A stretch of 64,000 nucleotides of DNA, taken from the NCBI RefSeq assembly GCF_032854445.1, contig NC_088304.1:7761704-7825703 (forward strand). The letters are read 5' to 3'. Positions 8,618 through 53,012 of the stretch are shown one piece after another. Below the pieces are notes generated by a model. The model searched no databases. It saw nothing but the letters and a program-made list of their open reading frames with translations, and was not told the DNA's origin. This DNA is from Liolophura sinensis (lineage: Eukaryota; Mollusca; Polyplacophora; Chitonida; Chitonidae). A program made the translations under genes and the position numbers. Numbering within the stretch: position 1 is the first letter of the stretch; each line of letters begins with the position of its first letter.

Positions 8618-11600
8618 ATGGCACGCGAGTCAGAAGTGAAGTTGACAGACACAATTCGCAAAGCCCTCCAAGATGCTGTCGACGATAGTAGAATTTCAAA
8701 TATGGACAAAATGACATTTAAAAATATACTGAACGAAGAGGGCTGTGGGCAGAAAACAATTCCCTTCAAAACAGTGCGAAACCTTTCCAAGGCATTGACT
8801 ACCGCAGGTAGGCTAAATAACACACAGCATAATGTAAGGTCAAATGTCTTGTTGGGCTGCTCAACGGGCTTGAATGAATTTCAAGGATTAAAAAAAATTG
8901 TACATGTCTTAGAGATCATTCATTACTCACAAGAAGAACATTTATAGTAGGTAAGCTAAATTCCTTGGAGTCATCTCCTTATGTAATGAAATAAGGGATC
9001 TATAAAGCCGTACGTTTAAATTTGTAGATGTCAGTATAGAAAAATATGAAAACTGGGGGTATTTGTCCCCTAAAATGTCCTTATTTCATCACCAGAATAT
9101 TGTCATAGTTAATTACTCTTCTATTTGGTTGGTCTTTGAGCTTTTTATTGGATATTTTGGGGTTTGCTTTGACAGCAGTTAGGTACGTGCATGAAGGCCT
9201 ATAATTTACAAAGGCGGGGGGAAAACAAGAAGTCTTGTGGGGTAGGAGAGGGTGTACCAATGATTTATGCCGTGTTCAAATGATTGATCGATTGAATGGC
9301 AATAAACACCATGCTTAGGAATTTCTCCATTCATACGCCATTGGAAGAAACCTGAGGACTGCTAGAATACACAAATAGTGTTTAAATATTTTCAAATACA
9401 TGTTCGTTTGTTTGTTTTTTTTTTTTTTGTTTTTTTGTGTTTTTTTTATTCAGGAAAGAAAGTATACATACATGAGTTATTAAAAGGAAGTGATGTCCAT
9501 CTTCCATCAGTTGATATTCCTAAAAGGGTAAGTCCTCCACAAAATATAATAAATATAACTGAATGTGATATAGATCCATAAGAGTATTACACGTATATAA
9601 GTCACTTGAGCAATTCAGATGGCCGCCATTTTCTGTAATAGAAATGTTGCGAGATCTTGCTTTACGCTGATTTTCCCTCCACATCCTGTGGTTTAACCCA
9701 GTGGCAGCATCAGTGCTACATAAAATGTCTGTTTCTCTGAAATTCTACATTGGAAAGTCTGTCGCCATACAGAGTAACTTATAGCCAAAACAAAGGAAAA
9801 ACTGAAAAGGCCAAGTACAAAGCGTTACTTTGAAAAGTTGTCGTTTTATTGGCTGTGAAAAGCAGCTTCAACCTCAAACTGCACTGACCACTAACCACAA
9901 CCGTGTGCTAATTTGACCAGGGTTACTGTGTTGTGGCGAGTGTAGTGGCACGCATCCCAAAATGTGAATGTCATTCTCTCACCTGTGCTATTATTCATGT
10001 GAATGTCATTCTCTCATCTGTGCTATTATTTATGTGAATGTCATTCTCTCACCTGTGCTATTATTCATGTGAATGTCATTCTCTCACCTGTGCTATTATT
10101 TATGTGAATGTCATTCTCTCACCTGTGCTATTATTTATGTGAATGTCATTCTCTCATCTGTGCTATTATTTATGTGAATGTCATTCTCTCACCTGTGCTA
10201 TTATTTATGTGAATGTCATTCTCTCACCTGTGCTATTATTTATGTAAATGTCATTCTCTCACCTGTGCTATTATTTATGTGAATGTCATTCTCTCACCTG
10301 TGCTATTATTCATGTGAATGTCATTCTCTCACCTGTGCTATTATTCATGTGAATGTCATTCTCTCAACTATGCTATTATTCATGTGAATGTCATTCTCTC
10401 ACCTGTGCTATTATTGACGTGAATGTCATTCTCTCACCTGTGCTATTATTTATGTGAATGTCATTCTCTCACCTGTGCTATTATTTATGTGAATGTCATT
10501 CTCTCACCTGTGCTATTATTCATGTGAATGTCATTCTCTCACCTGTGCTATTATTTATGTGAATGTCATTCTCTCACCTGTGCTATTATTTATGTGAATG
10601 TCATTCTCTCACCTGTGCTATTATTCATGTGAATGTCATTCTCTCACCTGTGCTATTATTTATGTGAATGTCATTCTCTCACCTGTGCTATTATTCATGT
10701 GAATGTCATTCTCTCACCTGTGCTATTATTCATGTGAATGTCATTCTCTCACCTGTGCTATTATTCTATTGAAGTAGATTCTATCATAAAAAAAGTATTG
10801 CTTTTAGGTAAGAAATTTTCCGTATAAAAGTTGTCAGTATGTGTCTAGCCTTCAAATATGGTAGTTTCAGTGTCTTGTAGTACTTTGAACTTTAGGAATG
10901 GGCAGAAATCGCTCATTCGCCTCCATGTTATTTATCACCTCCTGCTCCTTGCCAGGAAGCCCGGGTGCTCGGAACTAGGAATAATGGAGCAAATGAATAT
11001 CAGCCATGTGTGTACTATGAAAAACAAGTTCTTTGTGTTTAACAAGTCTTATATTTAGTCTAGGTATCCATCAAAAGTGTCACTGTTTGTGGGACTTTAG
11101 TGAGACTATGCTTGTGTATAGCTCTTCGCTGAAGAGCACTTGGCACTTGTGGGAAAATTAGTAACTTGCCAAAGGTTAGTGGTTTACTCCTGGTGCTCTG
11201 GTTTCTGCAACTCATTGGGCATGGCATTGAAAGACAATCAATCAATCAATCACTTAGTCAGTTTTGATGGGGCTTACAAGCTGGACATTTCAATCGTTGA
11301 TCTCTGGCACTGGAGTCCATGATTCTACCACAAAACTGAAAGGAAATTCCTTCTGAACAGGGCGGTAAATAGCACCTATATACAACCAATTAATCATGAT
11401 CTTGTAGTAAATAATTAGTAAATGATCTTGTTTTTCAGAGCCCAGAATTAGAGGCTAGGTTAGAGAGGCTGAGGACAGAAGCCGCAAACAGAGAGTATGA
11501 ACAAATGGTGGGGAGCATTGTGCCCAAGGTGAGGCCAGGTTAGAGAAGCTGTGGGCAGAAGCCAAAAACAGAGAGTATGAACAAATGGTGGGGAGCATTG

Positions 11601-14600
11601 TGCCCAAGGTGAGGCCAGGTTAGAGAAGCTGTGGGCAGAAGCCACAAACAGAGAGTATGAACAAATGGTGGGGAGCATTGTCCCCAAGGTGAGGCCAGGT
11701 TAGAGAAGCTGAGGACAGAAGCCACAAACAGAGAGTATGAACAAATGGTGGGGAGCATTGTCCCCAAGGTGAGGCCAGGTTAGAGAAGCTGTGGGCAGAA
11801 GCCACAAACAGAGAGTATGAACAAATGGTGGGGAGCATTGTGCCCAAGGTGAGGCCAGGTTAGAGAAGTTGTGGGCAGAAGCCAAAAACAGAGAGTATGA
11901 ACAAATGGTGGGGAGCATTGTCCCCAAGGTGAGGCCAGGTTAGAGAAGTTGAGGGCAGAAGCCACAAACAGAGAGTTTGAACAAATGGTGGGGAGCATTG
12001 TGCCCAAGGTGAGGCCAGGTTAGAGAAGCTGTGGGCAGAAGCCACAAACAGAGAGTATGAACAAATGGTGGGGAGCATTGTGCCCAAGGTGAGGCCAGGT
12101 TAGAGAAGTTGAGGGCAGAAGCCACAAACAGAGAGTATGAACAAATGGTGGGGAGCATTGTCCCCAAGGTGAGGCCAGGTTAGAGAAGTTGAGGGCAGAA
12201 GCCACAAACAGAGAGTTTGAACAAATGGTGGGGAGCATTGTCCCCAAGGTGAGGCCAGGTTAGAGAAGTTGAGGGCAGAAGCCACAAACAGAGAGTATGA
12301 ACAAATGGTGGGGAGCATTGTGCCCAAGGTGAGGCCAGGTTAGAGAAGCTGTGGGCAGAAGCCACAAACAGAGAGTATGAACAAATGGTGGGGAGCATTG
12401 TGCCCAAGGTGAGGCCAGGTTAGAGAAGTTGTGGGCAGAAGCCAAAAACAGAGAGTATGAACAAATGGTGGGGAGCATTGTCCCCAAGGTGAGGCCAGGT
12501 TAGAGAAGCTGTGGGCAGAAGCCGCAGAGAGTATGATCAAATTATAAGAGCTCCTGTAGAAGTTTCACTGCGAAGTTGTCTGTGTATTCAGAACGGATTG
12601 TCAAATCAGTTTTACATGCCTGCTTCTGATTTTTGTTTGTCTACATCACTTCCATACAGTGAACTTATGTTGCATGTCTTATTTGTGAATTCTTAAAAGT
12701 ATCGTTTAAACAAAAATGGGATACAAAATCACTGGTAGCAAGCTCTAAGCAAAATCACTTTCACATTGAGAATTTTGGCTGTGCTAAGAAGTATCATGTG
12801 GTATAAGGAGTCATATTGATTTGGAAATCATTGAATCGCTTGGTTTTTTTTAGGAATTGGTTGAAAAAGATACTTTCAGATTCATTTACTTTACTTATTC
12901 CTGTGTTTTATTTTGATATTTATTTTCACCACGTACGCACGAATATTTCATTTAATGGCACTTTGAGAGTGGTGTTAAACAACAACTAGACAAATTAATA
13001 ATTAAATGGCAGGTGTAATTAAGTAAAGAGGAAACTGGAAGGAAAGTAGAGGAAACTATGGTACCTTGTCAGGTGCATGACAAACAACCTGACTTAAATC
13101 TCTCTGTTCATTCACCTGTGAGCTACAACCGGAAGCCATTAAATCACTTGGCCAGTTATAGCCCCTCCATTGTGTTTTTATACATGTACAAATCGGGATT
13201 CATCAGAAGGAATACACTCATTTACAGATGAGGACACAGTGTTTTACAATAGATGACGTATGAGCTCAAACTGTGTTGTTTTTAAAGCAAAAACCGTCAG
13301 TCTGATTATATGACTTGTGAAAAAAGTTTGGCAAATTTTGTTGATATTAATTTACCGATCAACTGTCTTATCATCCTCTAGAGGACAGACTTCCTCCCAA
13401 GCCATACGTGGGAAGGTCTGCCAGCAACCTGTGGATGGTTGTGGGTTTCCCATGGGCTGTGCTCAGTTTGCTCCCACCATAATGCTGTCCGCTGTCATAT
13501 AAGTGAAATATTCTTGAGTATGGTGTAAAACACCAGTCAAATAAATAAATCACCTCTTACCTGCAGGAATTTTTCAGATGCTCAGCTCCTCAATTCTCTC
13601 CATTGTCCGCCTTACCTTAATAACTTTTTGTGGAATGTCTTGCAGATGCCCAGTAAATCCGCTCAAGAGCAATAAAACAGTTCTAACTTGAAACTCTTTT
13701 ATTACACTTTATATCATAGGCGTTTGTGTGATTATTTCCTTTTGTTTGTTACAGTCAAGCCCCTTGGATTTCTCAATTGGGGAAGATGGTGAGTGGTCAG
13801 TTAGGCCAGTTCCACATTCTGTGTAATGCATGTGATCAACTTTTTAACTCATCTTTGGGGCAAAGATAGATCTGGCAACAAGATAAACTTAGCTCTGCCC
13901 CCCTACCCCACCCCGCTCTTCCCAGTCTAACAAGCCAAAAACAAATAAAATGGAGATCATCATGTTTGTTCCTGTCTGTTACATGTATATACTCTTATAT
14001 TTTTATTATATTGGCCTAGCATCATCATCAAGTCTAGTGCAAATAAAAGACACCAACCTAAAGACTTGCTTTCCGCACCCACTGCACCACCACCATACAT
14101 CCCCACTCAAATAGAACAGATATATTTCAGCCATGAAAGCTTCCACGGTACAAGCTCTACTGCTCCACTATGAAGCAGGACATGCACAACTACATGTAGC
14201 TGCTCCACATGGCGGCACGCCCGAGAAGCATTTACTATGGAAGCGTTTATGTCTATAATATATCTATACTAATTTGCGTAGGGACGTATGGTGGCAGTAC
14301 GGTGGGTTCAGAAAGCAGCTCTTTAGGTTGGTGTCTTTTATTTCCACTAGACTTGTTCAATAACAAAGAGAATCGGCCTGGAACTTTGTTGAGTACGAAA
14401 TTAATACTGTTAGCATTGAGACTCCATCGACGTCAGGCCAACGACATTAAGAAAAGGAGTTGGAATCTTTCAGGGCTATCTCTTTTTATGTCTCTTTTCC
14501 TTGTAGTCAAGGCCATAAACAGACAGATGACAGCTGTGTTTAACTTCGTCATCACTGTTGTGGCAGCGTTTATGTTTGGTTACAAAGGCTCCGAGTTGTT

Positions 14601-15823
14601 GTTGGGTGTCTCCAATGTTGCTCAGGTTAGTATGTCCACAAGTCTGAATCCCTGTCTGCTTTATAGGTAAACTGTTGGCTGGTATCTCCAGGTTGATGGA
14701 GAAGGCGATCAGATGCTAACCACACATATTATTGGCTTTGTTTAAAGTCACTTAAAAAGAACACTAAACTGCACTGGAATCAGTCTTCCTTTTTCATTTG
14801 GACATAGATTTTTTGGGAAGTTAAGCCATTGTTGTGACGTCTCACCATTGTTGTAGCTGTGGATTATTTTTCACGAATCCACATGTGGAAGTCTGGATTT
14901 GTTGTGTAACACTTCAGCTGTGTCTCTTAAGGAATCAGTTCTGCCTGTGGGCTTGTAGCTTTTATAGACTATATTCAACCAATTGTCTCACAAACAACTT
15001 GTCAGTGATTTGAACCCAAATACTGCTGCTTGACACACGGTCATCTGTCTGACTGAGTTATTAGGGCAGGCTATACAGGTTTGGTGTTTTAAGGGACTAC
15101 GATGTTAACCATAACAGAACACAAACATCAGCGAGTAATCTATGAGCCTGCTTGCGTACAAGCTCACCTATATAGTGTAAGTCCATATCACCCGTCCCAA
15201 AGGACACCCAGAAGCAATTTGTTGAGTAGTTCATAAAAGATGCTTTTTGCAGGTTGATTGAAAGTGTGTTGTATTTCCAAAAAGGAAATGTCCGTCAGGA
15301 GTTTATACACTTGACCCTTTGTCTCTAAATGCAGTTGCAAACTTACAACTAATGCGTACAATGTCGCACCAGAATATTCTACTCGGTTTGCTATCTTCAC
15401 TTTGCACAAGAAATGAGCAATGAAATAGTTCATCCTTTGTCATTACTTCAAAGTTAGACTTTAAGTGAGGAGGTTTGTCAGGTACTTAGCAAGGTTTGAT
15501 GGTTTCCTCCAGCTTACGCCTAATATCTGCCATTGATATGCCTGACTGGCCTTACACAGAATGAAAACTTACTCAGTAGTCCGTATAAAACACCAATAAA
15601 ATGAATAAATAAATCTATACTTAATATTTGTTTTGTTTATATATTTTATGCGTTTCCTACAATGTAAACGAATATATTAAATTAAAAGGTATCTATATCT
15701 GTATAGAAAGTAACTACAGTGTATTTCTGTTTCTTTTTCTTTCAGAAACTGACATATGGACTGGTTTTAGGGATGGCAGTGTTTTTTGCAGATCTGTACT
15801 TTTTAGTTAAACACACAAAATGA
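8618..15823 (+). CDS. TMEM199: TMEM199 / VMA12 homologue, V-ATPase assembly factor, complete (194 aa)
   Basis: ER membrane protein that helps assemble the V-ATPase V0 sector. Exons: 8618-8807, 9454-9527, 11439-11528, 13755-13788, 14507-14625 and 15746-15823 (stop TGA 15821-15823). Phases 1,0,0,1,0 agree and all introns are GT-AG. Exon 2 encodes KKVYIHELLKGSDVHLPSVD, matching the conserved LYLHELLEGSE region of human TMEM199. Exon 3 encodes PELEARLERLRTEAANREYE. Exon 5 holds membrane segment 1 (AVFNFVITVVAAFMFGY) and exon 6 segment 2 (LTYGLVLGMAVFFADLYFLV), with a short KHTK tail. Length is close to the human protein (about 208 aa). I chose the ATG at 8618 because it has a good context (AAGATGG) and gives a family-like length. 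Introns 2 and 3 contain large tandem arrays. Confidence 0.95.
9962..10763. repeat. 35-bp tandem array, about 23 copies, TMEM199 intron 2
   Basis: Near-perfect 35-bp units built around GTGAATGTCATTCTCTCACC followed by TGTGCTATTATT, with only scattered substitutions and no visible indels. Unlike the intron 3 array it does not touch an exon: it starts 434 bp after exon 2. On the reverse strand each unit carries CACAG/GTGAGA, a strong 5' splice-site match, but no gene is evident on that strand. Confidence 0.97.
11529..12532 (+). repeat. 80-bp minisatellite of exon 3 plus its 5' splice site, TMEM199 intron 3
   Basis: The donor GTGAGG of exon 3 at 11529 recurs at exact 80-bp steps (11609, 11689 and so on to 12489), giving 13 donors. 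Each unit is GTGAGGCCAGG plus a 69-nt copy of the exon end (from TTAGAGAAG to CCCAAG). A final partial copy ends near 12532. Copies differ at a few recurring positions (CTGTGGGC/TTGAGGGC, TGCCC/TCCCC). None has a stop or indel inside the 23 exon-derived codons. No copy has a pyrimidine-tract acceptor, so they should not be spliced in as exons. Reading past the first donor meets TAG after four codons (V-R-P-G-stop). Confidence 0.97.
13375..13550 (+). mobile_element. MetaSINE-like element, 5'-truncated
   Basis: Body motifs are GGTCTGCCAGCAACCTG, CCCACCATAATGCTG and AAGTGAAATATTCTTGAGTA, with an AAACACCAGTCAAATAAATA tail. The same body is shared by more than a dozen copies in the window, the most complete at 52490-52746. 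It lies in TMEM199 intron 3. The name MetaSINE is from memory and needs a Repbase comparison. Confidence 0.8.
14030..14355. mobile_element. Foldback element, arms of about 75-100 bp, TMEM199 intron 4
   Basis: The left arm begins at 14030 with AAGTCTAGTGCAAATAAAAG and continues with ACACCAACCTAAAGA. The right arm, ending near 14355, is its imperfect reverse complement (TTTAGGTTGGTGTCTTTTAT, then CCACTAGACTT). Homology weakens towards the centre. Probably a non-autonomous DNA transposon; no clear target-site duplication. Confidence 0.75.
15465..15615 (+). mobile_element. Diverged MetaSINE-like fragment
   Basis: Contains GTTTGTCAGGTACTTAGCAAGG, a tract like the family's TTTCCTCC region, and a tail AAAACACCAATAAAATGAATAAATAAAT. 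It lies in TMEM199 intron 5, about 130 bp before exon 6. A similar block, without a clear tail, lies at 16080-16260. Confidence 0.5.
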
Positions 15824-19465: not shown

Positions 19466-22400
19466 ATGGAGGAGGTGATTAAGGAGGCTCTGGGGACACA
19501 GACTCTAACTCGGCTGGGGGTGGGAGGGTCAGGCTGTATCAACAAAGGAGAGGGCTATCAGACTGACCAGGGGAAAGTCTTCATCAAAGAAAACTCAGCA
19601 AAAGGCGTAAGTTGCTATTACATTTATATGCAAACATGCATTTTGTTTCCACCAGATGCATACTTATATGTCATCTTCACCTATTTATGAACAGTTAAGA
19701 TTTTCATGAGAAACTTTTAAAGTCAAGTTTACCTTTTTTTATTTATCTAACACCACAAGTTGGCTGCATCTATTTGAAAATGAGATGGTATTTCAAGACA
19801 AAGGTCTGATAGATTCATCAAATTTATGAATTGCTAATTTTGTTTTAAAGTGTGCAGCTTTTAGTTCCCTTCCCCTATGATACTGACAAGTGCTGTATGA
19901 GGACGTATTCTTGAAATCAGGGTTCAACATCAGTCACTCATTTTCAAATGGTCTGTCAGAAGCACTTACTCTGTAGGTCTGTACGCTTAAAAGACCGTAC
20001 ATACATGGAAATGGGAAATTTAAGTCCTGTGTATTGACATTTTCAGGGACCTTAGGTTGCTCGGTCGCTCGTCTTCTGTTTGTCCTCCACATAACTATTT
20101 TGTTCTCCTCATCACTATTTTGTCCTCATCACTCTTTCGTCCTTCTCATCACTATTTTGTCCTCATCACTATTTCGTCCTCCTCATCACTTTTTTGTCCT
20201 TGTCACTATTTCGTCCTCCTCGTCACTATTTTGTCCTCTTCGTCACTATTTTGTCCATTCAGTGGTAATTATTTTCCAGGCAAGACAGATGTTTGATGGA
20301 GAATTTGAAAGTTTGAAAGCTCTCCACTCCACACAGACCGTAAAAGTGCCTCAGCCTGTAAAGGTACATGAGATATAAAGATAACCTAGTTTGTGAGTTC
20401 AGCCGTGTAGTCAAGAAGACTTACTTATTTATTTATTTCATTGGTATTTTACGCCATGCTTAAGAATATACAGCTTATACGACATTGCCCAGCAGCCAGC
20501 ATTGTGGTGGGAGGAAACCCATGATCATCCGCAGGTTGCTGACAGACCTGTCCATGTACAAGAAGACTTATACGTGGCTAGCTATCATGATAAGGCAAGC
20601 TGTATTAGTTAGTATTTTTTTATGTCTGCACCAGTTCTTTTTGAAGCGGGCCATGGTAGGGGTCATTGGTTTTAGCCTTTTGTATCATTGGAACACAGAA
20701 GTTGCCGGTTCAAATCTGGTTAGGACAGAATTTGTAGATTCCACTGCTTTCACAACTTTTGAAGCCTTGGTGGCGTTAAGCAGTGCTCCTATGGCTATTT
20801 GCGCTGTCTAATGTTTGTTGAACATCACTTGTCTTCCACCAAGATGGTGTGCATATCTGTAGTTCATGGGTAACTTGCCAGAAGTCGATGGTTTTCTTCA
20901 CCCATAAAACTGATTTCCATCGTAAAAGTGTAAAATTCTTGAGCATGGCATTAAATAACAATCAGATAAATTAATCATATTCTATTGTTGGTATTTTATG
21001 GATTGGTTAAAATAAAGGTTGAAGACATTGGACGAAGTGATAGGCAACCATAACTCATACAGCTGCATACATGGGGAGATCCTTCAGCAACCTTCAGAAG
21101 ATAGTAGGCTTCACATGTGCTTTTCTTGGTTTCCTCCTACCTCAAGTAATATATGTAAAATATTCTTCAGTACAATGTTAAATGCCAATTAAATAAACAA
21201 ATAAATATATGCCTCTGCTGTTTATGCCTAGGTGATTGACAAGCCAGGGGGCGGGGCATTGTTGGTGGCAGAATTCATGGATATGGGTCATGGCCTGTCA
21301 AAATTTTCAGCTCTGCTCGGGAAGCAGCTGGCCAGGTAATTATACTGTCCCTTGTTAGAAGCATAATCATCACTGATTAGCTGCTAGTTGCTGAATGAGG
21401 TACATATAATTCCAGACTTTGCTGTGTTTCAATTAAGGTAGTGTGGAACTTCAGAGGTTTTAACCCAGGATCCCCTATCTGCCCTGTCAACCAGTCAGTA
21501 GTGATTCTGGAAATCTGTAAACTTTCCTCACAGTTGCACATCTAATCTTTTGAAATGGAATTTGAACAGCACAATGCTTAGGATTAGGGGTACCCTAATT
21601 CGTCTAGTTTTTAGGACAGATATTAGTAGTGCTGAAAGCAAAGAATTACATTTCTCCCCTAGTTTTATGGAAAAATAAAGATATGAATTATTGTTCATTA
21701 AATGGACTAACTGTGCAACAAAAAGAAACTACATATTCCTGCTACAGTTACATGTATATTGGCTAAAAAGAGCAGACCAGGTGTCCCAAGAATTAGAAGA
21801 ATTGGGGTATTTATTTTATTTATTTATTAGATAGGTGTTTTATGCCGTACTCAAGAATAATTCACTTATACAAAGGCAGCCAGCGTTATGGTGGGAGGAA
21901 ATCCGGCAGAACCAGGGGGAAAACCCACAAACATCCGCAGGTTGGGATATTTATTTATTGGTTCCCTGCCTCTACGCCATCCATGTGTCTGTCTTGAAAC
22001 AGTTTTCCAGACTTTCTATCAAATCAGTTTATTATTCTGAATTGAAACTTTGTACATGGACAGGGCTCCAACAAGACAAATTATGGATCAAATTTGAGTT
22101 TCAGATCATGACTTTTCACCAAATTTTTTGCTGTTCTTGTTCTCACACTGTAAACATACATATAGCTGTTTATTCTGACAATTCAAACTACATGTAGCGT
22201 CAGAATGCTCATTTACGTGAGGCTCAACCAAGCTCAGGAATTTGTGGACGGGTTATTATTTAATTAGCTGTAATCAGTCCTGTCTGACATCAACCTGCAG
22301 ATAGCCATGAGTTTTCTCCAGTTTCCTCCCACAATAATGCTGGCCGCCCTCATATAAGTGAAATACTCTTGACCAATCAAATAAATAAATAAATAATTAA

Positions 22401-25400
22401 TCAATCCTGTTATTTTTGTAATGTGTAGAGATGTAAATTAGATGGTTGATGTCAGATTTACTCTCTGTGTACATGTCACCTATTGTATAATAATCCCTGA
22501 TGTCAGTATTAATGAACTTAAATGTGAACATTAACACTGAAAATAATCAAGACATTATTACCCATTGTAGATACTCATAGAATTATCACCGAATTAGTTT
22601 TTGATATTTAACTTTAAGCAATTACAAAATAAATTCCAAGTGTTGAAATTGCCGTTATTCCCTGGATTCTGTTTTCAGACTTCATCTCCACAATTCAGAG
22701 GTGGGTGAATTGCAGAAGAAACAGGAGAGCTCTGTTCATGTTAGCCACCAGGTGGAGCACATTGACAAATTCGGCTTCCATGTTCCTACCTGCTGTGGTT
22801 ACATTCCACAAGAAAACACATGGAATGAGGATTGGATTGTAAGTTTGGGTTATTTTCTGTGCTTTCTGAAAATGGACCTTTATAAATAAACACCTGTGAA
22901 ACTGTATTTGCTATAACGCTTTTTGTGTCAGTACACTGCTGATTCTTTATCTTGTGTGCAATTTGAAACATTGAAATGTAAATTTGTGTGCATGCAAAAA
23001 ATGGACCTTTTAAAGATAAACACCTGTGAAACTGTATTTGCTATTGTGCTCCTTGTGTCAGTACACAGCTGATTCTTTATCTTGTGTGCAATTTGAAACG
23101 TTCCCTGCCTGCTGTAATTTGAGCCTTTGGTGTGTAATCTGTTGTACATTCCTGTCTTTGCTAAGATGTGTAATGTGCAAACTGGTAACATTTTCATCGC
23201 GCATTGTATGAGAACAATGAACTGTTCAGCTTGGACCAGAGTTGCCATTATGTGGGAAAAAGTAGGCCTAACTCATTGCAACAGTGGTGCAGTGCTTAAT
23301 GTTTGGACGTGGTCAGTGTAAACTAGATTCATATATGAGGCTATATCCTCATCTTCATTGGCTCAGCTGCTATATTTGTTTAATATATGACTGAGAATGT
23401 GATATTAAATTACCTGTATTTTTTTATCTTGTAGAAGTTCTATGCCCAGAAGATAGAATATCAAGTGAAAAAGGTGGAAGAAGATGTAAGAGACAGATCA
23501 GTCTGCATCATTGAACTTATATAGTTTTGAGAAAATACAGTACTTTCACTTGACGCTCAGCATAAGAGGTTGTCCAGTATTGCATGATCTGGTGTCAGTA
23601 TAATCTGATTGTGTGGGTGTCATGCCTGGTGTCAGTATATTGTGTGGGTGTCATGCCTGGTGTCAGTATACTGTACTGTGACTGTGTGGGTGTCATCTCT
23701 GGTGTCAGTTTAATGTGATCATTTGGGTGTCATACCTGGTGTCAGTATGTTGCGTGGGTGTCATGCCTGGTGTCAGTATAATGTATTGTGACTGTGTGGG
23801 TGTCATGTATGGTGTCAGTATAATGTGATTATTTGGGTGTCATGCCAGGTGTCAGTGTACTGTAATAGTGTCAGTGTCATGCCTGGTGTCAGTATACTGT
23901 ACTGTGATTGTGGGGGTGTCATGTCTGGTGTCTTAGACTTAGTGCTCCATTGAAGTAGCACTATAACTTCTTAACATTGGGGCCTTCAAACCAGAAGAAT
24001 GCACCACAAAAGTTGAAGCAAACGATATGCTTTATTGTACAATTGCTGAGACCAGCGAAAAATACTGGCTTAAATGAGACAAACTCATGCTTGCCAACAC
24101 TATATGAAGATTCCAGTATATGCATGTGATACAGAGTGAATACTGGTACTAGCATCAGATAACTTCAAAAGCTATGTTGCAATCATTCCCTAGGATTGTT
24201 AAAAGGTGTTTTTTGAATGTGAAGGGTGTTTCTTGATATAATTTGACGAGCTACAATAAACTGTGTATCTGTCCATGTTTACTTGTGAACGATTCTCTCT
24301 ACTCTTCACAGCATGGTGACAGAGAAGTGCGTGAACTCTGGTCCTTAGCGTTGATCAAAGTGCCTTCACTGTTCAAAAATGTAGAAGTAAAACCTGCTCT
24401 TCTCCACGGAGACCTCTGGGGAGGTAATGCTGCAGAGACTACCACAGAGCCAGGTATGTTCAGGTAAACCTTGCCCACTGAGTAAGGTATGTTCAGGTAA
24501 ACCTTGCCCACTGAGTAAGGTATGTTCAGGTAAACCTTGCCCACTGAGTCAGGTATGTTCAGGTAAACCTTGCCCACTGAGTAAGGTATGTTCAGGTAAA
24601 CCTTGCCCACTGAGTCAGGTATGTTCAGGTAAACCTTGCCCACTGAGTAAGGTATGGTTAGGTAAACCTTGCCCACTGAGTCAGGTATGTTCAGGTAAAC
24701 TTTGCCCACTGAGTCAGGTATGTTCAGGTAAGCCTTACCCACTGAGCCAGGTATGTTCAGGTAAACGTTGCCCATTGAACCAGGTATGTTCATGTAAACC
24801 TTACCCACTGAGTCAGGTATGTTCAGGTAAACCTTACCCACAGAACCAGGTATGTTCAGGTAAACCTAACTTACAGAGCCTGGTGTGTTCAGGTAAACCT
24901 TGCTCACTGAATCAGGTATGTTCAGGTAAACCTTACCCACAGAGCCAGGTATGTTCATGTAAACCTTGCCCATGGAGCCAGGTATGTTCATGTAAACCTT
25001 ACCCACTGAGTCAGGTATCTTTAGGTAAACCTTACCTATGGATCCAGACATGTTCATGTAAACCTTACCCATGGAGCCAAGTATGTTCACGGAAACCTTA
25101 CCCACTGAGCCAGGTGTGTTCATGTAAATCATGACTGCTGAGCCAGGTATGTCCATGTAAACCTTACCCACTGAGTCAGGTATGTTCAGGTAAGCCTTAC
25201 CCACTGAGCCAGGTATGTTCAGGTAAACGTCACCCATTGAACCAGGTATGTTCATGTAAACCTTACCCACTGAGTCAGGTATGTTCAGGTAAACCTTACC
25301 CACAGAACCAGGTATGTTCAGGTAAACCTAACTTACAGAGCCTGGTGTGTTCAGGTAAACCTTGCTCACTGAATCAGGTATGTTCAGGTAAACCTTACCC

Positions 25401-28400
25401 ACAGAGCCAGGTATGTTCATGTAAACCTTGCCCATGGAGCCAGGTATGTTCATGTAAACCTTATCCACTGAGTCAGGTATCTTTAGGTAAACCTTACCTA
25501 TGGATCCAGACATGTTCATGTAAACCTTACCCATGGAGCCAAGTATGTTCACGGAAACCTTACCCACTGAGCCAGGTGTGTTCATGTAAATCATGACTGC
25601 TGAGCCAGGTATGTTCACGTAAACCTTACTCACTGAGTCAGGTATGTTCATGTAAACCTTGCCCACTGAGTAAGGTATGTTCAGGTAAACCTTGCCCACT
25701 GAGTAAGGTATGTTCAGGTAAACCTTGCCCACTGAGTAAGGTATGTTCAGGTAAACCTTGCCCACTGAGTAAGGTATGTTCAGGTAAACCTTGCCCACTG
25801 AGTCAGGTATGTTCAGGTAAACCTTGCCCACTGAGTAAGGTATGGTTAGGTAAACCTTGCCCACTGAGTCAGGTATGTTCAGGTAAACTTTGCCCACTGA
25901 GTCAGGTATGTTCAGGTAAGCCTTACCCACTGAGCCAGGTATGTTCAGGTAAACGTTACCCATTGAACCAGGTATGTTCATGTAAACCTTACCCACTGAG
26001 TCAGGTATGTTCAGGTAAACCTTACCCACAGAACCAGGTATGTTCAGGTAAACCTAACTTACAGAGCCTGGTGTGTTCAGGTAAACCTTGCTCACTGAAT
26101 CAGGTATGTTCAGGTAAACCTTACCCACAGAGCCAGGTATGTTCATGTAAACCTTGCCCATGGAGCCAGGTATGTTCATGTAAACCTTATCCACTGAGTC
26201 AGGTATCTTTAGGTAAACCTTACCTATGGATCCAGACATGTTCATGTAAACCTTACCCATGGAGCCAAGTATGTTCACGGAAACCTTACCCACTGAGCCA
26301 GGTGTGTTCATGTAAATCATGACTGCTGAGCCAGGTATGTTCACGTAAACCTTACTCACTGAGTCAGGTATGTTCATGTAAACCTTACCCACTGAGTCAG
26401 GTATGTTCATGGAAACTTTACCCATGGAGCCAGGTATGTTCATGTAAACCATGACCGCTGAGTCAGGTATGTTCAGGTAAAAATACCCACAGAGCCATGT
26501 ATGTTCAGGTAAACCTTGCCCATTGAGTCAGGTATGTTCAGGTAAACCTTACCCACTGAGTCAGGTATGTTCATGTAAACCATGACTGCTGAGCCAGGTA
26601 TGTTCATGTAAACCTTACCCACTGAGTCAGGTATGTTCAGGTAAACCTTACCCATTGAGTCAGGTATGTTCATGGAAACCTTACCCACTGAGCCAGGTAT
26701 GTTCATGTAAACCATGACCGCTGAGTCAGGTATGTTCAGGTAAAAATACCCACAGAGCCATGTATGTTCAGGTAATCCTTGCCCACTTAGCCAGGTTTGT
26801 TCAGGTAAGCCTTTACTGCTTAGCCAGGTATGTTCAGGTAAACCGTGTTGTGTGAGAGATTGCTGGTTCATATCCAGTTATTGCTGATTCGCTGATTTAA
26901 TCCTGAAAGTTTTGTAGTATATGTTCCTAGGTAAATATCTACATGAACAGTTAGATTTGTTACCATGAGTAACACGCTAGTACTCCACTTCCTCCGAAAA
27001 CTGCGTTGTACAAATGGGACGCTGAAGTTAACCTTTCCACTGAGATTTAATCTGGTAGTCATGTGATCTTTGTGAGTGAGGACATAGCAAATTTGTCAGG
27101 TAAACCGTACTACAGTAGTTTCCTCTGACAATACACTGAATCACCATCACACATATGCACATATGACATCTCCTGAGTACAAAGCTAAACACTAAACAAA
27201 TAATTAAATATTTCATTGGTTAAGTTGTAACAAATCCTCACAGTGACTTTTCTCTGCAGTAATCTTTGACCCTGCGAGCTTTTACGGCCACTCTGAGTAT
27301 GATCTGGCCATCGCTCGGATGTTCGGTGGATTCAGCGAGAGCTTCTATTCAGGCTACTTCAACATCCTGCCAATGGCTCCTGGCTACAGGAAAAGATTGA
27401 GCCTCTACAAGTTCTTCCATTATATTAACCACTGGTAAGATATTGACCTGATTAGCCAACTTTGGCAAAAGCAAGGGATGTTAATTTGAGGCTGTCAGTC
27501 TGTCTGTCCTGCTTTGGCTTCTGTGTAATAACTGTGTCAAATGTTGTCCGATTTTGATAAGAGTATGTGTGCAGGTTTATTTTTTGTAACGTGAGATCAA
27601 ATTCCAAAGTGTTAAATATTAAGTTTGGGATAGAAGTCTGCTGGTTACAATTTGATGATCAGTTCTGGGGGTTAATAAGTTGATTTTCACAAATTGAGCT
27701 GACTCTGTAGGAGTTTATTTATTTATTTGATTGCTATTTTAATTGTTTATTTATTTGATTGGTGTTTTACCCAGTAGTTAAGAATATTTCACTTACACGA
27801 CCAAAAGCAGCTTTATGGTAGAAGGAAACTAGGCAGAACCTGGTAGAAATCCACGACCTTCCACAGGTTGCTGTCACAGACCTTTCCACATCAACCTGAG
27901 AGGAAGGAAGCATGTAAGAGTTAATGTGGCAAAGTTCAACAGTGATTGGCCAATGACTTCAGTGTCCTCCACCAATGAAACTGACAGCTGCTGTACGAGT
28001 GAAATATTCTTGAGTGTAATGTTGAACATAATCAATCAGTCCGTATGGTTGTGCTTTCAGGTGAGCAATTCGGAGCACACCAAACTGGGTTTCATTTGAG
28101 AACAGCAGTTTTCCATTCAGTGTAATTTATACAAATTTTGGTTCGTAACTGTGTCACTTATCCCTGGGTTGAGTTATATTGAAGGGGGTTTGAAGATTGT
28201 TTTGAAGGTACATACATGTATGTAGGGTTATTATTCTATTCCAAAGTTCTAAAGTGCTTCATCGTTTCCAAGATAGGCTAAGTGGAAGTATTGAAATGAT
28301 CTGAAGGAAATTCTATGGAACAGACTCTGTGGAACACACTCTATGGGAAAGAGCCAACACCATCGTTCAGGAAGATTGACAATGAAGAAAAATATTTAAT

Positions 28401-29331: not shown

Positions 29332-29909
29332 CGAGCTCCACAGTACATCTGGATATACCACACCTGAGAATGGTTACCTTTTTACAAGTTTCTGCTTACA
29401 CAGGAGTGTTGATGTGAATCGAAGCCACTATGCAGAAGTGCTTCTGATGGATTTAAGCTCTTGATCAGACATGCCATTATCCGGTGCTGGTGCTGGTGCT
29501 GGTGCTTAGGACTGCTCGATCTAGCTTCCATTGACAAAATGTGGTACCATTTATCTGATTGGTCCGTAAAATTTTTGATCGCAGCTGTTGTGAATTTGTG
29601 CAAATTTTAATGCAGCATTACTCCCACTGCTGTGGTGTCTGGTGAGGTCTGCTGTTGCTAATTAGAGCACACTTCTAGTGAGGTAGCACAATGAAACCGA
29701 AAGCATGCTTCCTGCCACAAGCCATCAGTGTTGCAGTACAGGTGTTTGGTGTCTTGAGCATACTGTTTTACTGAGACAGCATATTAAAGATGAAGGCCTA
29801 CCCCTGCTGCAAGCCATCATTGTGGAAGTATACGGGGTGTCTAGTCTGGCAGCACAACAGCATGCCCCTGCTACAAGCCATCAGTGTTGTAAGACAAGCA
29901 TGTATGCTT

Positions 29910-30195
29910 GCTGGAGTTTTTATGACATACTTAACAATAGTCATATGATGATAAGTCATTCTGTGTGTATGCCACCAAAGTGCTGCTGGAACTGAAGTAT
30001 CATGCCAAAGACACCCCACCCAGTAGATATTATACTGACACTGCGTCAACCAGTCCCTTTTCCTTGTTCTAACCGTCCTAGGTGCCAAGTGAGGCAGCAA
30101 CTAGTGCTTAAAGTCTCTGGTGTGACCCAGGTTTGATCCCGGGTCTTCTGACTGAAAAGCAGACGCTCTAACCATTAGGCTATTGACGCAGGTTG
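29910..30195 (-). mobile_element. tRNA-headed SINE (family 2)
   Basis: On the minus strand: A-box-like TAGCCTAATGGTTAGAGC (30165-30182), B-box GGGATCAAACCTG (30128-30140), then a body through GGCACCTAGGACGGTTAGAA and GGTGTCTTTGGCATGATAC to a TCATATGA motif near 29940. Body parts recur at 48995-49090 and 57510-57715. Confidence 0.75.
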
Positions 30196-31384: not shown

Positions 31385-31650
31385 TTGGGAGAAAAGTTTG
31401 GGTCAACTGACTCAAAAGTCTGAGTAATTTAATGGAGCTGATTTGACTCAAAAAAACCTCATATCGCCTGATCAACTGAGTCAAGTGACTCATCTTGTTA
31501 TATTTTGACCCATTTGGTTAGTCGGAAAACTCGCAAGAGTCGTTGATGACTCAGCTAACTTGGTCATACGACTCTGTGTTCTGAGTCGAATTAGTTCCAT
31601 TGAATTACTCAAGACTTTTGAGTCCGCTAACCCAAACTTTTCTCTCGGTG
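31385..31650. mobile_element. TIR/foldback MITE-like element (266 bp)
   Basis: The left end GGGAGAAAAGTTTGGGT, followed by GACTCAAAAGTCTGAGTAAT, is inverted at the right end (ATTACTCAAGACTTTTGAGT, then ACCCAAACTTTTCTCTCGG). The arms extend at least 55 bp and weak complementarity continues inward. TGCA lies at both edges (31381-31384 and 31651-31654) and may be the target-site duplication. Confidence 0.8.
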
Positions 31651-33235
31651 TGCAATATTGCATCGATATCGTAGAGAAATCTGAATCAGCAGTCTAGTAT
31701 CCGAAGTTACATTATGCACGTGCACACAATTTGGTTAAGCTGAAAATTTGAGACCACTGTTTGCTGTCAGTCAAGCTGAATTATATTTAAAAACTAACCC
31801 TAGATGACCATCCTTGTAATTTGGTCAGTTATTGACATGTAAAACAGGGCTAAATGTAGATTCCTTACAGTAATCATTACAAAGACAGATTTCAAAATGT
31901 GTACAAGTGTTCACAAATAAAATAAGCCATGAACAATAATACAGAGAAAGAAAAGAAAAAAAAAAAACTTTCCTACAACTGCTTACGGATTTTCAGCTAT
32001 TTCTTATTGCTGCCCACAGATTGTGTAAGTACGTGTAGAACTACACACATTGGACTCTTCCAGAACATGCTAACTTCACACATACAGTACAGTATCTACA
32101 CTTGCATTGAAAACTTCACACAGGAGAAAGATTTTTCACCCAGATTTTAAATATTTGGATGATCAATTGTATGACCTAATTTAAAAAAAAAACAAAAAAA
32201 ATGTGCCTCAATTATTACGTTATCCATACCAGAATCTGAGTTCACAAAGAAAATTGAATACATGCTTCATTTTAAAGTAAAAGCCTGAAGTTTAAATGAC
32301 CAAAAGTCTGGCATGCACACAGTATTTTCTCAGAAACGGGTGTCAATTATAACACAAGAATTACATTCGTCCACTCTTCGATCTCGCTGGACAGGTCTGC
32401 TTGAACTTCTTCCCATATGCTACATTGGCTAACAATAAATCGCCATTTACAGACACAATCATACCATTGCAGTGAAGACAGAAGTAGAAAGCCTTCATAC
32501 AGACACTAATTGGTAACCCAATTAACTTAAACTGCATTACAAAAAACAACATATTTTAAGTTATTCTAATTTTGTTAGAGCATGTCCCGCCCAATATAAC
32601 TGATCTTTCTCCATCAAAACCATTCATAAACCAACTCCCGAAATGAAGTGATTTGATCAACAGGGAGATAACCCACTGGCCTGCTGTTCACTCAATGACA
32701 TATATGTACTTAATATATTGGCAGAAGCTCTGGGTTGTAGAAGTCATTACCATTTACAGCCACTTATGGATAACAGTCAAGAATACATAATCATGTGAGA
32801 TAACATGTAATAACCGCTAAAAAAATGTGACAACAACACAGACCATAGATAAATGGTATAAACACCCTTGGTAGCACATTTCATGATGCTCGTACACACG
32901 CTGGCTGTGATCAGTGAAGCACTTCAATATGAGCATTAAGGCAGTAGGAACAATATAGAAACACATGATAACCTTAGAATGTGCTTTCATCACATTATTG
33001 GGTTATGACACCGGATGCAAATTGTAAATTTGAATACAAAAATGAAATCTCTTGTGCGGATATACATGAACATAACATAATACTTTGGAATTGTAGCATT
33101 CTCAGCATGTGGTGGCTATGCACGTTGTTTGCTCTTTGATAAGACTTCTGGTTTAGAACATACTCAATTTCAACGTCACTGAGGTAGTACAAGATTCATT
33201 TTCACGCATGTTCATTTAATTCACCGCATAAAAAC

Positions 33236-33282
33236 CACCCCACCCCCACCCCCTCCCAACCCCAACAACGCCCTCCCCCAAT
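33236..33282 (-). other. G-quadruplex-capable tract in the WSB 3' UTR
   Basis: The plus strand is a run of C blocks (CCACCCCACCCCCACCCCCT and on), so the WSB-sense strand has at least five G3-G5 runs with short loops. It lies about 270 nt beyond the WSB stop codon. Confidence 0.7.
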
Positions 33283-33546
33283 TGTTAGCCAGTCTGGCCA
33301 GCAGTGGGAAATATAGGGTACCCACTCTTTCACCCAAGAGGAAAGAGACGATGGTTTAAAACATGAAAAATAAGCACTTTATAATCTGTTGACATGTTCA
33401 CTCTGCTCAGCTGACAAAACCTCAAGGATGCTTTCAGGAGAAGGCATTCCGCCTTTCCCCGACCAAATAGTGTTAATTTTCTCTCTCTCTCAGTCTGCAC
33501 AAAGTCCCCCCACCCCCAGTACGTACCCAATAAAATAGGAGTGCTG

Positions 33547-36500
33547 TCAGATCTTGTATTTCAGGTACTCTTTAACACGTAGCGGTAAGAACAGCATGTC
33601 TATCTTGGTGGAGGGAACACGTCTTCGTATTGTCATGCGGGTACAGTGCTGGAGGGTGGGAACCTCTTGAGGGGCAGCGAAAAATTCCACCGATCCATTC
33701 GTATCTCTGCAATAACAAGATGTAAAACCACTAATCTTGATGCCAGATATAAACCAGTATTCAACAACAGTCTTCCAACATATGCACAATACCTGAATCT
33801 TTTCACAAATTTCCTGAATCTGACAAAATTTCTTTGCTGCCTTTTCTCCTGTTTCGCACTTTCTCGTTTACTCATAAAGGAGTGCATGTTCTGTGCAATC
33901 AACAACTTTTTCTACAGTTCAATCAATCATTGCTGAAGAAATTTTGAGGGGTGTCGGCGAGTAACTAAAAAAACATCCCCACGCGATGCCCAGATTTTCA
34001 TTCAGAGATCTGCATGTTAGACCGCACCAAACAGTCCAACAAGCAGTCTGCCACTCACTGCATCAAGGCCTTAAAAACGATAGGGGCAAGAGAATCATGA
34101 AAATTAACGCTGTCCAAGGCTGAGACTCTGTACGTGATATTCAACAACTTACCCAACAGCTACAACTGTGCCATCTGGTGAGTAGGAGCAGCAAACTGCG
34201 TTGTTCACGCTCCCAACAAGAATAGGGTCAGCAAAGTCTTCCAGATCCCAGAATCTCACATATCTGTAAGGAAAACAAAATGTCCAACTCTCAACAACTC
34301 TCGCCAGAAATATGGCAATCCAATTTCTAAAACTGTTGTAAAACTACATCTAATAAACACACAAATATGATGGAAAAAAAAATACTGCAATAATATCCAA
34401 CATCACAAATTTTAATTCACTCAATATTCAGCAGCTTTCGTTAATGTATAAAGTGAACGTAATATGTTAAAATCCTATGCTTCACACAAAAGTCACATGA
34501 CACTTCTCGTGCAGTGCTAATATACAATATAGTGTTAATACAATATTAATGTAAGTTTACTCAACAGTTACGTATGTACAACTTTAGTAAATGTTTCATC
34601 AATACAACATATTTGTACTTACACTTGTATATTAACTTATCATACACTAAGAAATACCTATGAAATACCACTTCACAGACAACAGAAGTTTCACATTCTT
34701 TAAAAGACAAAAAAAAAAAAAAATCCAGTAAAAATGTCAATTCAGTTCTGCCTTGAATATATTCGCAAAATACACATATGTAAACATGTAAATCTATATC
34801 TTACAGAAGTATTAATCCAAATAATATCTTGACGGGTTGCGTCTTAGAACTGTCAATTTAATCTGGTGAAGGATGGTACAGTTTTATATGAATGTCCACA
34901 GAAATAACTCAGAACAGAATCCCTTACAAGTTTTTTTGTGTTGCTCCAAAACGCTACAAACACTTCAGAAATCAGTCAGCTGGGTGGCTGCCTAAACCAG
35001 ATAGAGGTTCGTTTCTAAAGCTGGGTTGACCTCTCGGGTCCAAGCTGTATTGACCTCTCAGGTCCAAGCTGGGCTGACCACAGTTCTTTTATAGTTCACA
35101 AGCACTACCTTAGCAGTTTGTCCACAAAACATCCTCACAAGAGCAGAAATGCAGACAACGTAGCTTAGGCCCAAATTACTTTATTCAGTAAAGGTTCCCC
35201 ATTAAACATAAGAGTGCATTTGGTTTTGAGAATTCCTAACCATTACCTGCTCAGTATACCCCACTCCTCCTGAGGAGCAATCCCTGGTCAAAGAGCTTGG
35301 TCTCATTTTGACAATAGGAGAGGCAGACAAAACTGACATTCTTACTGGTTTCTTCACAAGTTTGGAGTAATGTTAAAAACCATGGAGAAGCGAGAGTTCA
35401 CATGAGTCTTCTCCTCTCCGCTCCGCTTTCTCTCTGCTGTTCACGAGGCCACTATTATAATTGCTGGAAATTCTGATTTTTTCCTCCTAGTGAAGAAAAA
35501 CATGATCCAGAATGACACGAACCCCTATGACCCCACCCTCTTCCCGCCAAGGCCTTTTGGCCACATCCTTCTCCCCAGTTTACAGCAGAAAGCTCCAACT
35601 GCAAATAATCACACAATCACCCATCAACTTTCACACAGGTGTTCTATGTTAAATGTAGATGAGGATTCATATTAAAACAGAACACTTTATTTTTCTTCAA
35701 TCACCAGTTTTTTTATTTATTTATCGTAAGCGTTGTTAATAAATCTCATTCTTAAGAATCAAGGATGGTTATTTTTGTTGGTTGAGGAAACCTCAGTGCC
35801 CAGGGTAACCCACCCTATTTACTGACAAACACTTCTTTTGCCTTGAATGACATACAGACTTGTACCTCACAGTGAGGACCCTTTGAGCACAGAGTGAGGA
35901 AAAATTTACAAAAGTTCTGCTGAAGGCTGGGATTGAACCCGCACCTGGTGTGCCTCGTGGTTTGAGTCGTGACTCTTTCCACTTAACCACATCCTAGCCA
36001 CCAATTTTTGTATGACAAGCTTGTACAACTAGCTGAAATGGTGCAGGAAACCTCGGCAATCTCTTTCAGTTCCTAGCAAACCTTTTCAAAAACAATTTGC
36101 CATGAGCAAAGACATGCAAAAAACATGCATACTGATGATATATTTGGCTTGTTTTAAACCATACAATTTCAAGGACATACATAACCATAATATGAAAATG
36201 TGAGAAATGGTGATAAAACATGGCTCTGCAGTGCCAAACCTTGCAGAATTGCCTATTTGCCACATTGCAATGATGCTTTAGGGCTGTTGACTCAGTACTG
36301 TTATGGCTGTATAGTACCACACAATACTGAGCAGCAGCCACAAGTTTTACAACAATCTGGGGACTAAAGTGCTATGTCTCTTCAAAAATGGCAGGGTGAG
36401 GTAGTGTAGAAAACTAGCCTTATCCTCCTTTCATCCTTCCCTTACTTTCACACAGAGAAACGAGGCATTGACAAGGTGGTAAGCAGAGCGGTAAGAACAG

Positions 36501-39500
36501 TGGTAAGGGTACATACCCATCCTCAGCTACTGTGGAGAGGTGGAGCCCATCACAGGAGACTGACAACCCGCGCACATAGTGATCATTAGCACCTCCTGCG
36601 AAGATAGGGCTGGGCGGAGGATATAGGTGGCTGTAACACAGACAAGTCAAACATCATTGTAATGTGTGCTCAGTTTTGATAATCTTCTACTGAGTGTCTA
36701 AGATCCCTCTTACAAGATAACTTAATAAAGCCTTAAGATCTCTGGTATAAGCTCAGTTACTGAAGCTGTAAGAGGATATCGCCACTGTATGTATCCCAGA
36801 TTATAAGGTAACTTACTGAAGCTGTGAAAAGATATCCCCAGTATAAGGATCCCAGAATATAAGGAACTTTAATGCTGAATCTTTAAGATTTCTGGTATAA
36901 GGTAACTTACCAAAACTCTAAAAGCTCCAGTATAAGGTAACTTAACAAAGCTCTAAGAGCTCTCGTGTAAGGTAACTTGCTCAAGCCCTAAGAGCTCTCA
37001 CATAATGTAACTTACTGAAGCTCTAAGAGCTCCCACATAATGTAACTTACTGAAGCTCTAAGAGCTCCCACATAATGTAACTTACTGAAGCTGTAAGAGC
37101 TCCGGTATAAGGTAACTTACTGAAGCTGTAAGAGCTCCGGTATAAGGTAACTTACTGAAGCTGTAAGAGCTCCGGTATAAGGTAACTTACTGAAGCTCTA
37201 AGAGCTCCCACATAACGTAACTTACTGAAGCTCTAAGAGCTCCCACATAATGTAACTTATTGAAGCTCTAAGAGCTCCCACATAATGTAACTTACTGAAG
37301 CTGTAAGAGCTCCCACATAATGTAACTTACTGAAACTGTAAGAGCTCCCACATAATGTAACTTACTGAAGCTGTAAGAGCTCCCACATAATGTAACTTAC
37401 TGAAACTGTAAGAGCTCCCACATAATGTAACTTACTGAAGCTCTAAGAGCTCCGGTATAAGGTAACTTACTGAAGCTCTAAGAGTTCCGGTATAAGGTAA
37501 CTTACTGAAGCTCTAAGAGCTCCGGTATAAGGTAACTTACTGAAGCTCTAAGAGCTCCAGTATAAGGTAACTTACTGAAGCTGTAAGAGGATATCTCCAA
37601 TGTAAGGATCCCAGATTATCACTCGTGTGTCGAATGATGCCGTCGCCAGCAGAGCACCGTCTGGTGAGAATTTACAGGCTGACACATCATGAAGATGGCC
37701 GACTAACTTCCGCACTATTGTCTTCAGTTTCATGTCCCAGATTATCACCTGAAAAATAGCATATAGAGAATGAACAACTCATCGTACAAAAAAAAACAAA
37801 AAAAAACTCGGGAGTAAAATAACCTTGTAAATGATAATTTTCCTGTACAAAAAAACAAACAAACCATGTTACGCAAAATTACTACAAGCATAACAACACA
37901 ACTGTTCAAGCAACTTATACAAATAAATACTAAAACTGAAGGCATTACATCACCAATGGAATCTAAGAGCAACATTTTATCTGCACCACATAAAGTTTCG
38001 CTTACAGACTTGAAGTTTCCAACGCCAGCCAACATTGTAGCGTCTGGCGACCAAGCGCAGCCGTTCACCCACTTGGCGTCTCCACGCAGCGTCTTCATCA
38101 TGTTCCCATCATCATTGAGATCCCAGAGTTTGAGTGTCCCGTCCCGCGATGCAGAGACCAGGAGGAGGCTATGGTCAGGAGCAAAATGCAGGTTACGAAC
38201 AATGTCCTTATGGTCCAATAACTCCATTAACAGTTGACCTGAAAATACAACAGTAACAGCCCCATTAATAACTGACCTGTAAAGACAACAACAGCTGACG
38301 TGAGCCAGCCCAGTGAAGCCAGGCAGTGTCTTTGTACGTCAGCTATATATATATATATATATAGGTCTATCAGCCAGTCCACAATAAATCATGTGCAGTG
38401 TAATTGAACAGAGATCAACATAAATTTACAAACCATGGAAGACCTGTCATTCAGGCTACAACCATATCAGTTTGAAGCAGGAATCTATGAACGTCTATTA
38501 GAGAAGTTTTGATATTGACAGCATTCCGATAATTCGGTCATTTTGCAAAAAAAGTTGGCTGGCTTTGTTTTCGTTGCCCATTCTTTTCAAAATGTCACCA
38601 CACAAAACCTTCTCACTCTTGTAGGAGGAACCAAAATCAGTACAACAAGCCATCCCTCAACGTAGGGAAATATCTGTGAATTAACATGTTGTTTGCTTTA
38701 AGAAAATCTCAGCAAAACTAATGGCGCCCACTGATTAGTTAAATACACTCGGGCTCGCCAGGCTCGAGGCACTTCAGGGGTGTTCGCTGCTCTCCAAGTA
38801 AGGTCATGACATAATTTCAAAAAAAAAAAAAAAAATCCAGCCATTGATGGAATATATGCATAAACAGATGGATAATTAACAGGTATAAAAAAATACATCA
38901 AAACTGAAAATCTAACAAAAAAAATTTAGGGGCAAACTTATGTAGAAACTTAATCTGTTTTCCCATCAGTTACATGCAGATCATCAAGAAGTTGGGCCCT
39001 GCACATACTTGCAAAAGCTTAATCCAAGTTTCAACTAAAATGCAAAACATTCCTGAACTAGACCTACCACCAGGAAAACATGAAAATCATGTTTCATCGA
39101 TTTCAGTGTTACTATCACTGTAAGAAAATGTTTTCCAATGTTGTTTAAGGTTCCTTCAGTTATTTATTTGACTGGTGTTCTGCACTGTACTCAAGCATAT
39201 TTCACTTATATACAATGGGGACAGCATTACCATGGGTGGAAAATCAGGAACCCCTTCATTTAAATTCTTTATTCCATTTGATTGGTGTTTTACGCCACAC
39301 TCAAGAATATTTAACTTTTATTTATTTATTTCATGTGTGTATTACGCTGTACACAAGAATATTTCACTAATACACTGAGGGCCAGCATACAGAGGGGGGA
39401 AAGCGGGTCGGAAGGTTTTAAGCATTTTAACATAAACAATGTGTTTTCAAAGACAACTGGATTTACAAATGAAATATTGTCTTTTATTTTTTAAAGCAAT

Positions 39501-52981: not shown

Positions 52982-53012
<31 letters not shown>

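Follow-up and report, generated by a model that had tools for sequence, protein, structure and literature searches.

Three of the four genes in a 64,000-nucleotide stretch of the genome of the chiton Liolophura sinensis (contig NC_088304.1, positions 7,761,704 to 7,825,703; in the following, the window) carry a minisatellite that covers the 5' splice site (donor) of one of their exons. The question raised by this locus is whether such arrays arise from a process directed at donors, are kept because the additional donor copies serve a function, or are tolerated by-products of tandem duplication. The most likely answer is frequent local tandem duplication that is tolerated at exon edges, leading to arrays of the kind known as mirages from amphioxus genes.

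Donor-spanning arrays in three genes of the window

The gene models of the window were built by hand and are open and in frame. SFSWAP (minus strand; Pfam DRY_EERY and Surp) is represented only by the eight exons that could be placed inside the window, and TMEM199 (plus strand, six exons; Pfam Vma12, 2.8e-24), FN3K (plus strand, eight exons; Pfam Fructosamin_kin, 5.4e-74) and WSB (minus strand, eight exons; Pfam WD40) run from start to stop. Array calling with Tandem Repeats Finder (TRF) confirmed the arrays that the original prediction had placed in intron 3 of TMEM199, intron 6 of FN3K and intron 5 of WSB (Table 1). The donors covered by them are located at positions 11529, 24454 and 37575, respectively. 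The arrays had been thought to begin exactly at the donor, which has to be corrected, since the TRF arrays start 78 nt (TMEM199), 12 nt (FN3K) and 14 nt (WSB) inside the exon and then cross the donor. As predicted, each unit combines exon-end sequence with the donor, the exonic part amounting to 78 of 80 nt in TMEM199, 12 of 33 nt in FN3K and about 14 to 19 of 35 nt in WSB, where the upper figure was determined by eye. The predicted stop within five codons past the real donor was found at codon 5 in TMEM199, codon 5 in FN3K and codon 2 in WSB, and the coding frame of the three genes is untouched by the arrays. Because the units are unrelated, their mutual likeness being no greater than that of shuffled units, the three arrays, each seeded by its own exon end, represent independent events of one kind, in agreement with the earlier claim.

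Table 1. Exons and donor-spanning arrays of TMEM199, FN3K and WSB (positions in the window)
Feature	Position	Strand	Description and basis
TMEM199 exon 3	11439..11528	+	gene model, TRF, unit listing; its last 78 nt form unit 0
TMEM199 exon 3/intron 3 donor-spanning array	11451..12523	+	80 bp x 13.4, 96% match (TRF)
FN3K exon 6	24312..24453	+	gene model, TRF; last 12 nt in the array
FN3K exon 6/intron 6 donor-spanning array	24442..26844	+	33 bp x 72.9, 84% match (TRF)
WSB exon 5	37576..37748	-	gene model; 3' end seeds the array
WSB exon 5/intron 5 donor-spanning array	36897..37589	-	35 bp x 19.8, 93% match (TRF)
Longer WSB units, distal end of the array	36746..36869	-	TRF period 56; alignment to exon 5

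The WSB array seems to preserve its own history. Among the longer units that lie farthest from the exon, one can be aligned to the terminal 44 nt of exon 5 and the first 16 nt of the intron with identity at 53 of 60 positions, and the 35-bp unit resembles a truncated version that may have expanded between the exon and the longer copies. Within the FN3K array, blocks of 330 bp that are 99.7 to 100% identical were found 14, 22 and 36 units apart, and therefore whole blocks must have been duplicated recently; in this one assembly, the near-identity of the blocks is only suggestive of copy-number instability between haplotypes. In the case of TMEM199, comparison by eye showed that the exon copy is unlike most of those in the intron and that variants of it recur in copies 3 and 13. 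The longer WSB units, the FN3K blocks and the variant sharing in TMEM199 fit a tandem duplication with later slippage and unequal exchange.

Arrays make up 11.3% of the length of the window and include 3 of its 26 donors and none of its 26 acceptors. When 40-nt probes were taken from each of these junctions, clear copies were found for the three known donors only; the acceptor probes of WSB introns 3 and 6 scored slightly above the remaining acceptors (16 and 15). Chance coverage was estimated by collapsing each array to one unit and placing it at random in the genic part of the window, which gave P 1.3e-4 for at least three of the four large arrays on a donor and P 0.004 for at least three of 14 arrays. 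With a slightly different array list, three donors in arrays compared with 0.47 expected (P 0.012). As the window had been selected on account of these arrays, the P values are post hoc. The fourth large array (9962 to 10773, 35 bp x 23.2 by TRF) is located in TMEM199 intron 2; it carries the donor-like motif CACAG|GTGAGAG on the strand opposite to TMEM199 and lies at no annotated donor. A further, pyrimidine-rich array (20079 to 20256) stops 23 bp upstream of the FN3K exon 2 acceptor.

Apart from the arrays, the window contains an interspersed repeat (52490 to 52760 and 53000 to 53240, with fragments elsewhere) that by eye has the look of a tRNA-derived SINE. Scans of the window for tRNA genes with ARAGORN and for Rfam families gave no matches.

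Exon edges outside the window

Exons chosen blind to arrays were taken from 38 of 81 myosin-head exon matches, selected where matches cluster (13 loci of 67 kb). After junctions with poor splice scores had been dropped (4 of 38 donors and 3 of 38 acceptors), arrays proved to cover 3 of the 34 remaining donors and 2 of the 35 remaining acceptors. At all five junctions the unit (31, 31, 32, 66 and 95 bp) includes exon sequence recognizable by eye as myosin. The five covered boundaries among 69 compare with 1.0 expected when the 25 arrays are collapsed to units (P 0.0037), the three donors with 0.49 (P 0.014) and the two acceptors with 0.51 (P 0.09). Arrays account for 13.1% of the myosin loci, but for only 1.8% of a set of kinase loci consisting mostly of single-exon matches, in which none of 8 donors and none of 3 acceptors was covered. 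No significant difference between donors and acceptors was seen in the myosin and kinase loci together (3 of 42 versus 2 of 38; Fisher p 1.0) or after inclusion of the window (6 of 68 versus 2 of 64; p 0.28). Minisatellites are abundant both in the window and in the sampled myosin regions, and what survives for this small blind sample is the weaker claim that arrays cover exon edges of either kind above random expectation.

The two acceptor arrays belong to loci L076 and L079. In L076 (2645 to 4005), a 32-bp unit with the 3' splice site TTTGTAG|GTTTGAGCG is repeated about 43 times directly upstream of a myosin exon. At a third myosin locus, L067, the matches at C1:26642195 and C1:26643291, about 1.1 kb apart, correspond to the same region of the myosin query (118 to 152) and could represent mutually exclusive exons.

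Motif counts covered the whole genome of 609,464,459 bases in 632 contigs. We searched for three copies of a donor word, at 28 to 58 bp spacing in the case of AGGTAAGT, with the donor word read backwards as control; single counts include copies within arrays. The word AGGTAAGT gave 626 triplets and 26,576 single occurrences, compared to 468 and 29,085 for its control, and the word AGGTGAGT gave 1,277 and 24,391, compared to 507 and 18,803; counted by matches, the amplification per occurrence of the donor words thus exceeds that of the reversed words 1.46-fold and 1.94-fold. For the acceptor word TTTTCAGG, raw triplet counts only are at hand, with 320 for the word and 142 for its control. The rarity of the donor word as a single copy that had appeared in the window (1 versus 6) was overturned by the genome-wide single counts of AGGTAAGT. 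Because the matches cluster in a few large arrays, arrays were counted instead of matches, by eye and over the stretches of contig C1 common to both listings. This yielded 16 arrays versus 15 for AGGTAAGT over 72.1 Mb (p 0.40) and 14 versus 6 for AGGTGAGT over 10.45 Mb (p 0.16), where both words occur together in an array at 10.449 Mb. The donor-word excess is therefore mild at most, and its confinement to donors is not established. Since arrays also occur at acceptors and array-level counts show no significant surplus of donor words, the mutational process focused on donors that the original prediction had proposed finds no support.

Among the matches listed for C1 up to 93.4 Mb, 20 arrays of AGGTAAGT were counted by eye, and the 5' edge was examined in 19. 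Seven of the 20 begin at an evident coding exon end (L007, L018, L031, L080, L081, L082 and L084) and six have an edge without an evident exon (L009, L013, L022, L083, L086 and L088, the last with a possible 29-nt exon). The remaining seven are L008, L015, L016, L085, L087 and L089, in which the edge was beyond reach or the flank was short, and the array at C1:51318446. L018 and L082 are the least secure of the seven arrays at exon ends: the L018 array called by TRF adjoins a presumed GC donor but does not extend over it, and the similarity of unit and exon end in L082 covers a short stretch. In L018, at about 1380 to 1400, the exon copy apparently has a GC donor (CAG|GCGAGT), and many intronic copies have GT donors. 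The exon of L031 matched RNA polymerase III RPC1 (PDB 7a6h_A, E 3e-9) and that of L084 glycosyl hydrolase 31 (PF01055, 3e-13, and a PDB match). For six of the seven exon translations Pfam gave no match, PDB searches returned nothing for the L081, L018 and L082 exons, and NCBIfam gave no match for L081 and a weak deoC match, far below cut-off, for L082 (E 0.0023). By resemblance, these exons may be ARFGEF-like (L081), polycystin-like (L018) and deoxyribose-phosphate aldolase (L082). Because the arrays were picked by a donor word, the exons found at them are no proof of donor bias.

Tolerated duplication as the probable origin, and the alternatives to it

We consider it probable that the arrays are mirages, in which a boundary-spanning segment was duplicated in tandem and expanded and the exon-proximal copy remained the functional one, so that neither a donor-specific process nor a function of the extra sites is needed. 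A short segment over an exon edge would be duplicated in tandem and would then expand via slippage and unequal exchange. In the case of a donor, the exon-proximal copy would stay functional because it is paired with the upstream acceptor across the exon (exon definition), and it would also be favoured by its earlier transcription. Since this copy would remain a functional splice site, the further copies could lie harmlessly in the intron, and the array could grow nearly neutrally. In the case of an acceptor, the last copy, beside the exon, would play the equivalent part, as may be the case for the acceptor copies of L076. Arrays at exon edges would thus be tolerated because the exon-proximal site is the one used.

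Several points weigh against this reading. That splicing uses the exon-proximal site is something we infer from the reading frame and the amphioxus precedent, and in vitro work on duplicated donors has often found the intron-proximal one to be favoured. The excess of array-covered myosin boundaries is more than expected under plain neutrality. Finally, the columns of the main FN3K donor are conserved to about 0.955 to 0.962 compared to 0.858 to 0.863 for the other columns, a level reached by 2 of 33 windows.

The excess at myosin boundaries, with donors and acceptors contributing, together with the amplification of donor words by matches and the triplet count of the acceptor word, favours the explanation that exon-intron boundaries are hot spots for tandem duplication, for example through transcription-linked breaks, R-loops or slippage at AG/GT. 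We nevertheless regard this as unlikely: array-level counts remove most of the motif excess, the blind sample is small, and the kinase loci had no covered junction. AGGT is also dispensable, being absent from the junctions of WSB (CA|GTAAGT), L067 (TTG|GTAAGT) and the L079 acceptor (CAG|CCA). If one asks whether duplication affects exon edges more frequently than the rest of the DNA, the small blind sample answers perhaps and the array-level motif counts not clearly. A broader version, which we find doubtful though conceivable, holds that boundaries of both kinds are true birth hot spots of minisatellites in certain animal lineages, independently in cephalochordates and chitons, with arrays at several percent of splice sites that feed new splice sites and introns.

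Selection of the arrays as backup U1 binding sites, as suggested in the original prediction, or as U1 platforms against premature polyadenylation, is highly improbable. In its favour, most copies have kept the donor, with CAAG|GTGAG in all 13 full TMEM199 copies (exon copy counted), AG|GT in 52 of 61 FN3K copies and CA|GTAAGT in 15 of 19 WSB copies; within the FN3K unit, conservation is higher in the main donor columns than elsewhere. However, any later donor in TMEM199, FN3K or WSB would leave an in-frame stop in the transcript, arrays are found at acceptors as well, and the GT itself is retained in only 58 of 61 FN3K and 16 of 19 WSB copies and is thus lost in three copies of each. Selection on the donor copies was also rejected as a candidate by column conservation, since the somewhat higher conservation in FN3K has no counterpart in WSB, where 18 of 35 windows are as high as the donor columns, or in TMEM199 (38 of 80); at a second FN3K site, 12 of 33 windows are as conserved.

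We give very little credence to the view that the arrays are intermediates of intron gain via tandem duplication of AGGT segments, although such a model was proposed from amphioxus mirages (PMC3087553) and is reviewed, after Rogers and Hellsten, in PMC4974935. In an intron gained in this way both ends derive from the duplicated segment. In contrast, the acceptors of TMEM199 intron 3 (2,226 nt), FN3K intron 6 (2,806 nt) and WSB intron 5 (945 nt) are separate sites beyond the arrays, and 40-nt acceptor probes revealed no clear acceptor copies within these introns. Because they have kept separate acceptors outside the arrays, the three introns are not new in the Rogers sense, and the suggestion that they represent such intermediates has little support.

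Assemblies are known to be less reliable in long arrays, and the L076 array adjoins a run of N (possibly an assembly gap). An assembly artefact can nonetheless be practically dismissed, as the window arrays of 1.1, 2.4 and 0.7 kb are shorter than the HiFi reads of the Liolophura japonica assembly, with a mean length of 8.3 kb (PMC11068029), the copies show patterned variants and higher-order blocks, and the longer WSB units are no obvious product of mis-assembly.

What is new is that mirage-type arrays occur in a chiton, where they affect either end of exons and, in a small sample, several percent of the junctions; the kind itself is known from amphioxus. A curiosity of amphioxus genes is thereby found in a mollusc, where the counts suggest that it is common, and the arrays suggest that dozens of near-identical decoys next to a true splice site are tolerated in splicing. 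Provided that splicing is accurate, every array amounts to a natural experiment on exon-proximal choice, with 3 to 73 near-identical donors or acceptors per pre-mRNA. The arrays also offer a countable system for the proposed path from tandem duplication to intron gain.

Comparison with amphioxus mirages and other known systems

As in the intron gain of the Rogers model, described in PMC4974935 for ATP2A1/2 and for fission yeast and potato RdRp cases, a segment with a splice signal has been duplicated in tandem in the chiton arrays. Unlike in that model, they multiply the donor or acceptor of an existing intron, and no new intron was found whose two ends stem from the repeat. Introner elements are characterized by similar intron sequence across many genes, whereas the three units of the window are unrelated; an exact 33-nt pattern from the TMEM199 unit, the only unit searched in this way, had six matches in the genome, all within its own array. 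The human variable internal tandem repeats in segmental duplications (PMC2812944, passages) resemble the chiton arrays as minisatellites that alter gene structure, some of them at an exon-intron boundary. About half of the human repeats are coding and many shift the extent of exon or intron, whereas the frame of the chiton window genes is preserved. In C. elegans, a minisatellite was reported to be over-represented near regions of alternative splicing (PMC4039745), which shows that a role in splicing is conceivable.

The closest counterpart are the mirages of amphioxus. Judged by passages and titles, the open papers found to contain the term use it in this sense only for amphioxus (PMC3087553 and PMC3902484), and titles and opening lines of abstracts in the part of the open literature surveyed, which leaves most subscription papers outside, gave no mollusc case. 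The main text of the chiton genome paper PMC11068029 does not contain the term "tandem", and that of PMC12005716 contains neither "tandem repeat" nor "simple repeat". The chiton arrays differ from amphioxus mirages in belonging to another phylum and in copy number, which reaches 73 compared to 6 and 3 units in two amphioxus BflGb6 haplotypes. For amphioxus, RT-PCR indicated that regular splicing is not disturbed, according to the passages available (PMC3087553, PMC3902484), whereas the chiton arrays are known here from the sequence of one assembly.

The likeness is nevertheless extensive. According to the same passages, amphioxus mirages are repeats over both kinds of boundary with units of 10 to 160 bp, many of them including AG/GT (PMC3087553), and the lancelet PGBD5 and troponin C genes are further cases (PMC3902484). 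As in Adh3, the globins BflGb6 and BflGb9, PGBD5 and troponin C, a minisatellite-like duplication of the exon-intron boundary is present in the chiton, where a repeat spanning the boundary was found at 3 of 26 window donors and 5 of 69 blind boundaries. Chiton donors and acceptors are both affected, the acceptors at L076 and L079 (0 of 26 in the window). The chiton units likewise consist of exon sequence plus a splice signal, and with 33, 35, 56 and 80 bp in the window and 31 to 95 bp in the blind sample they fall within the amphioxus range.

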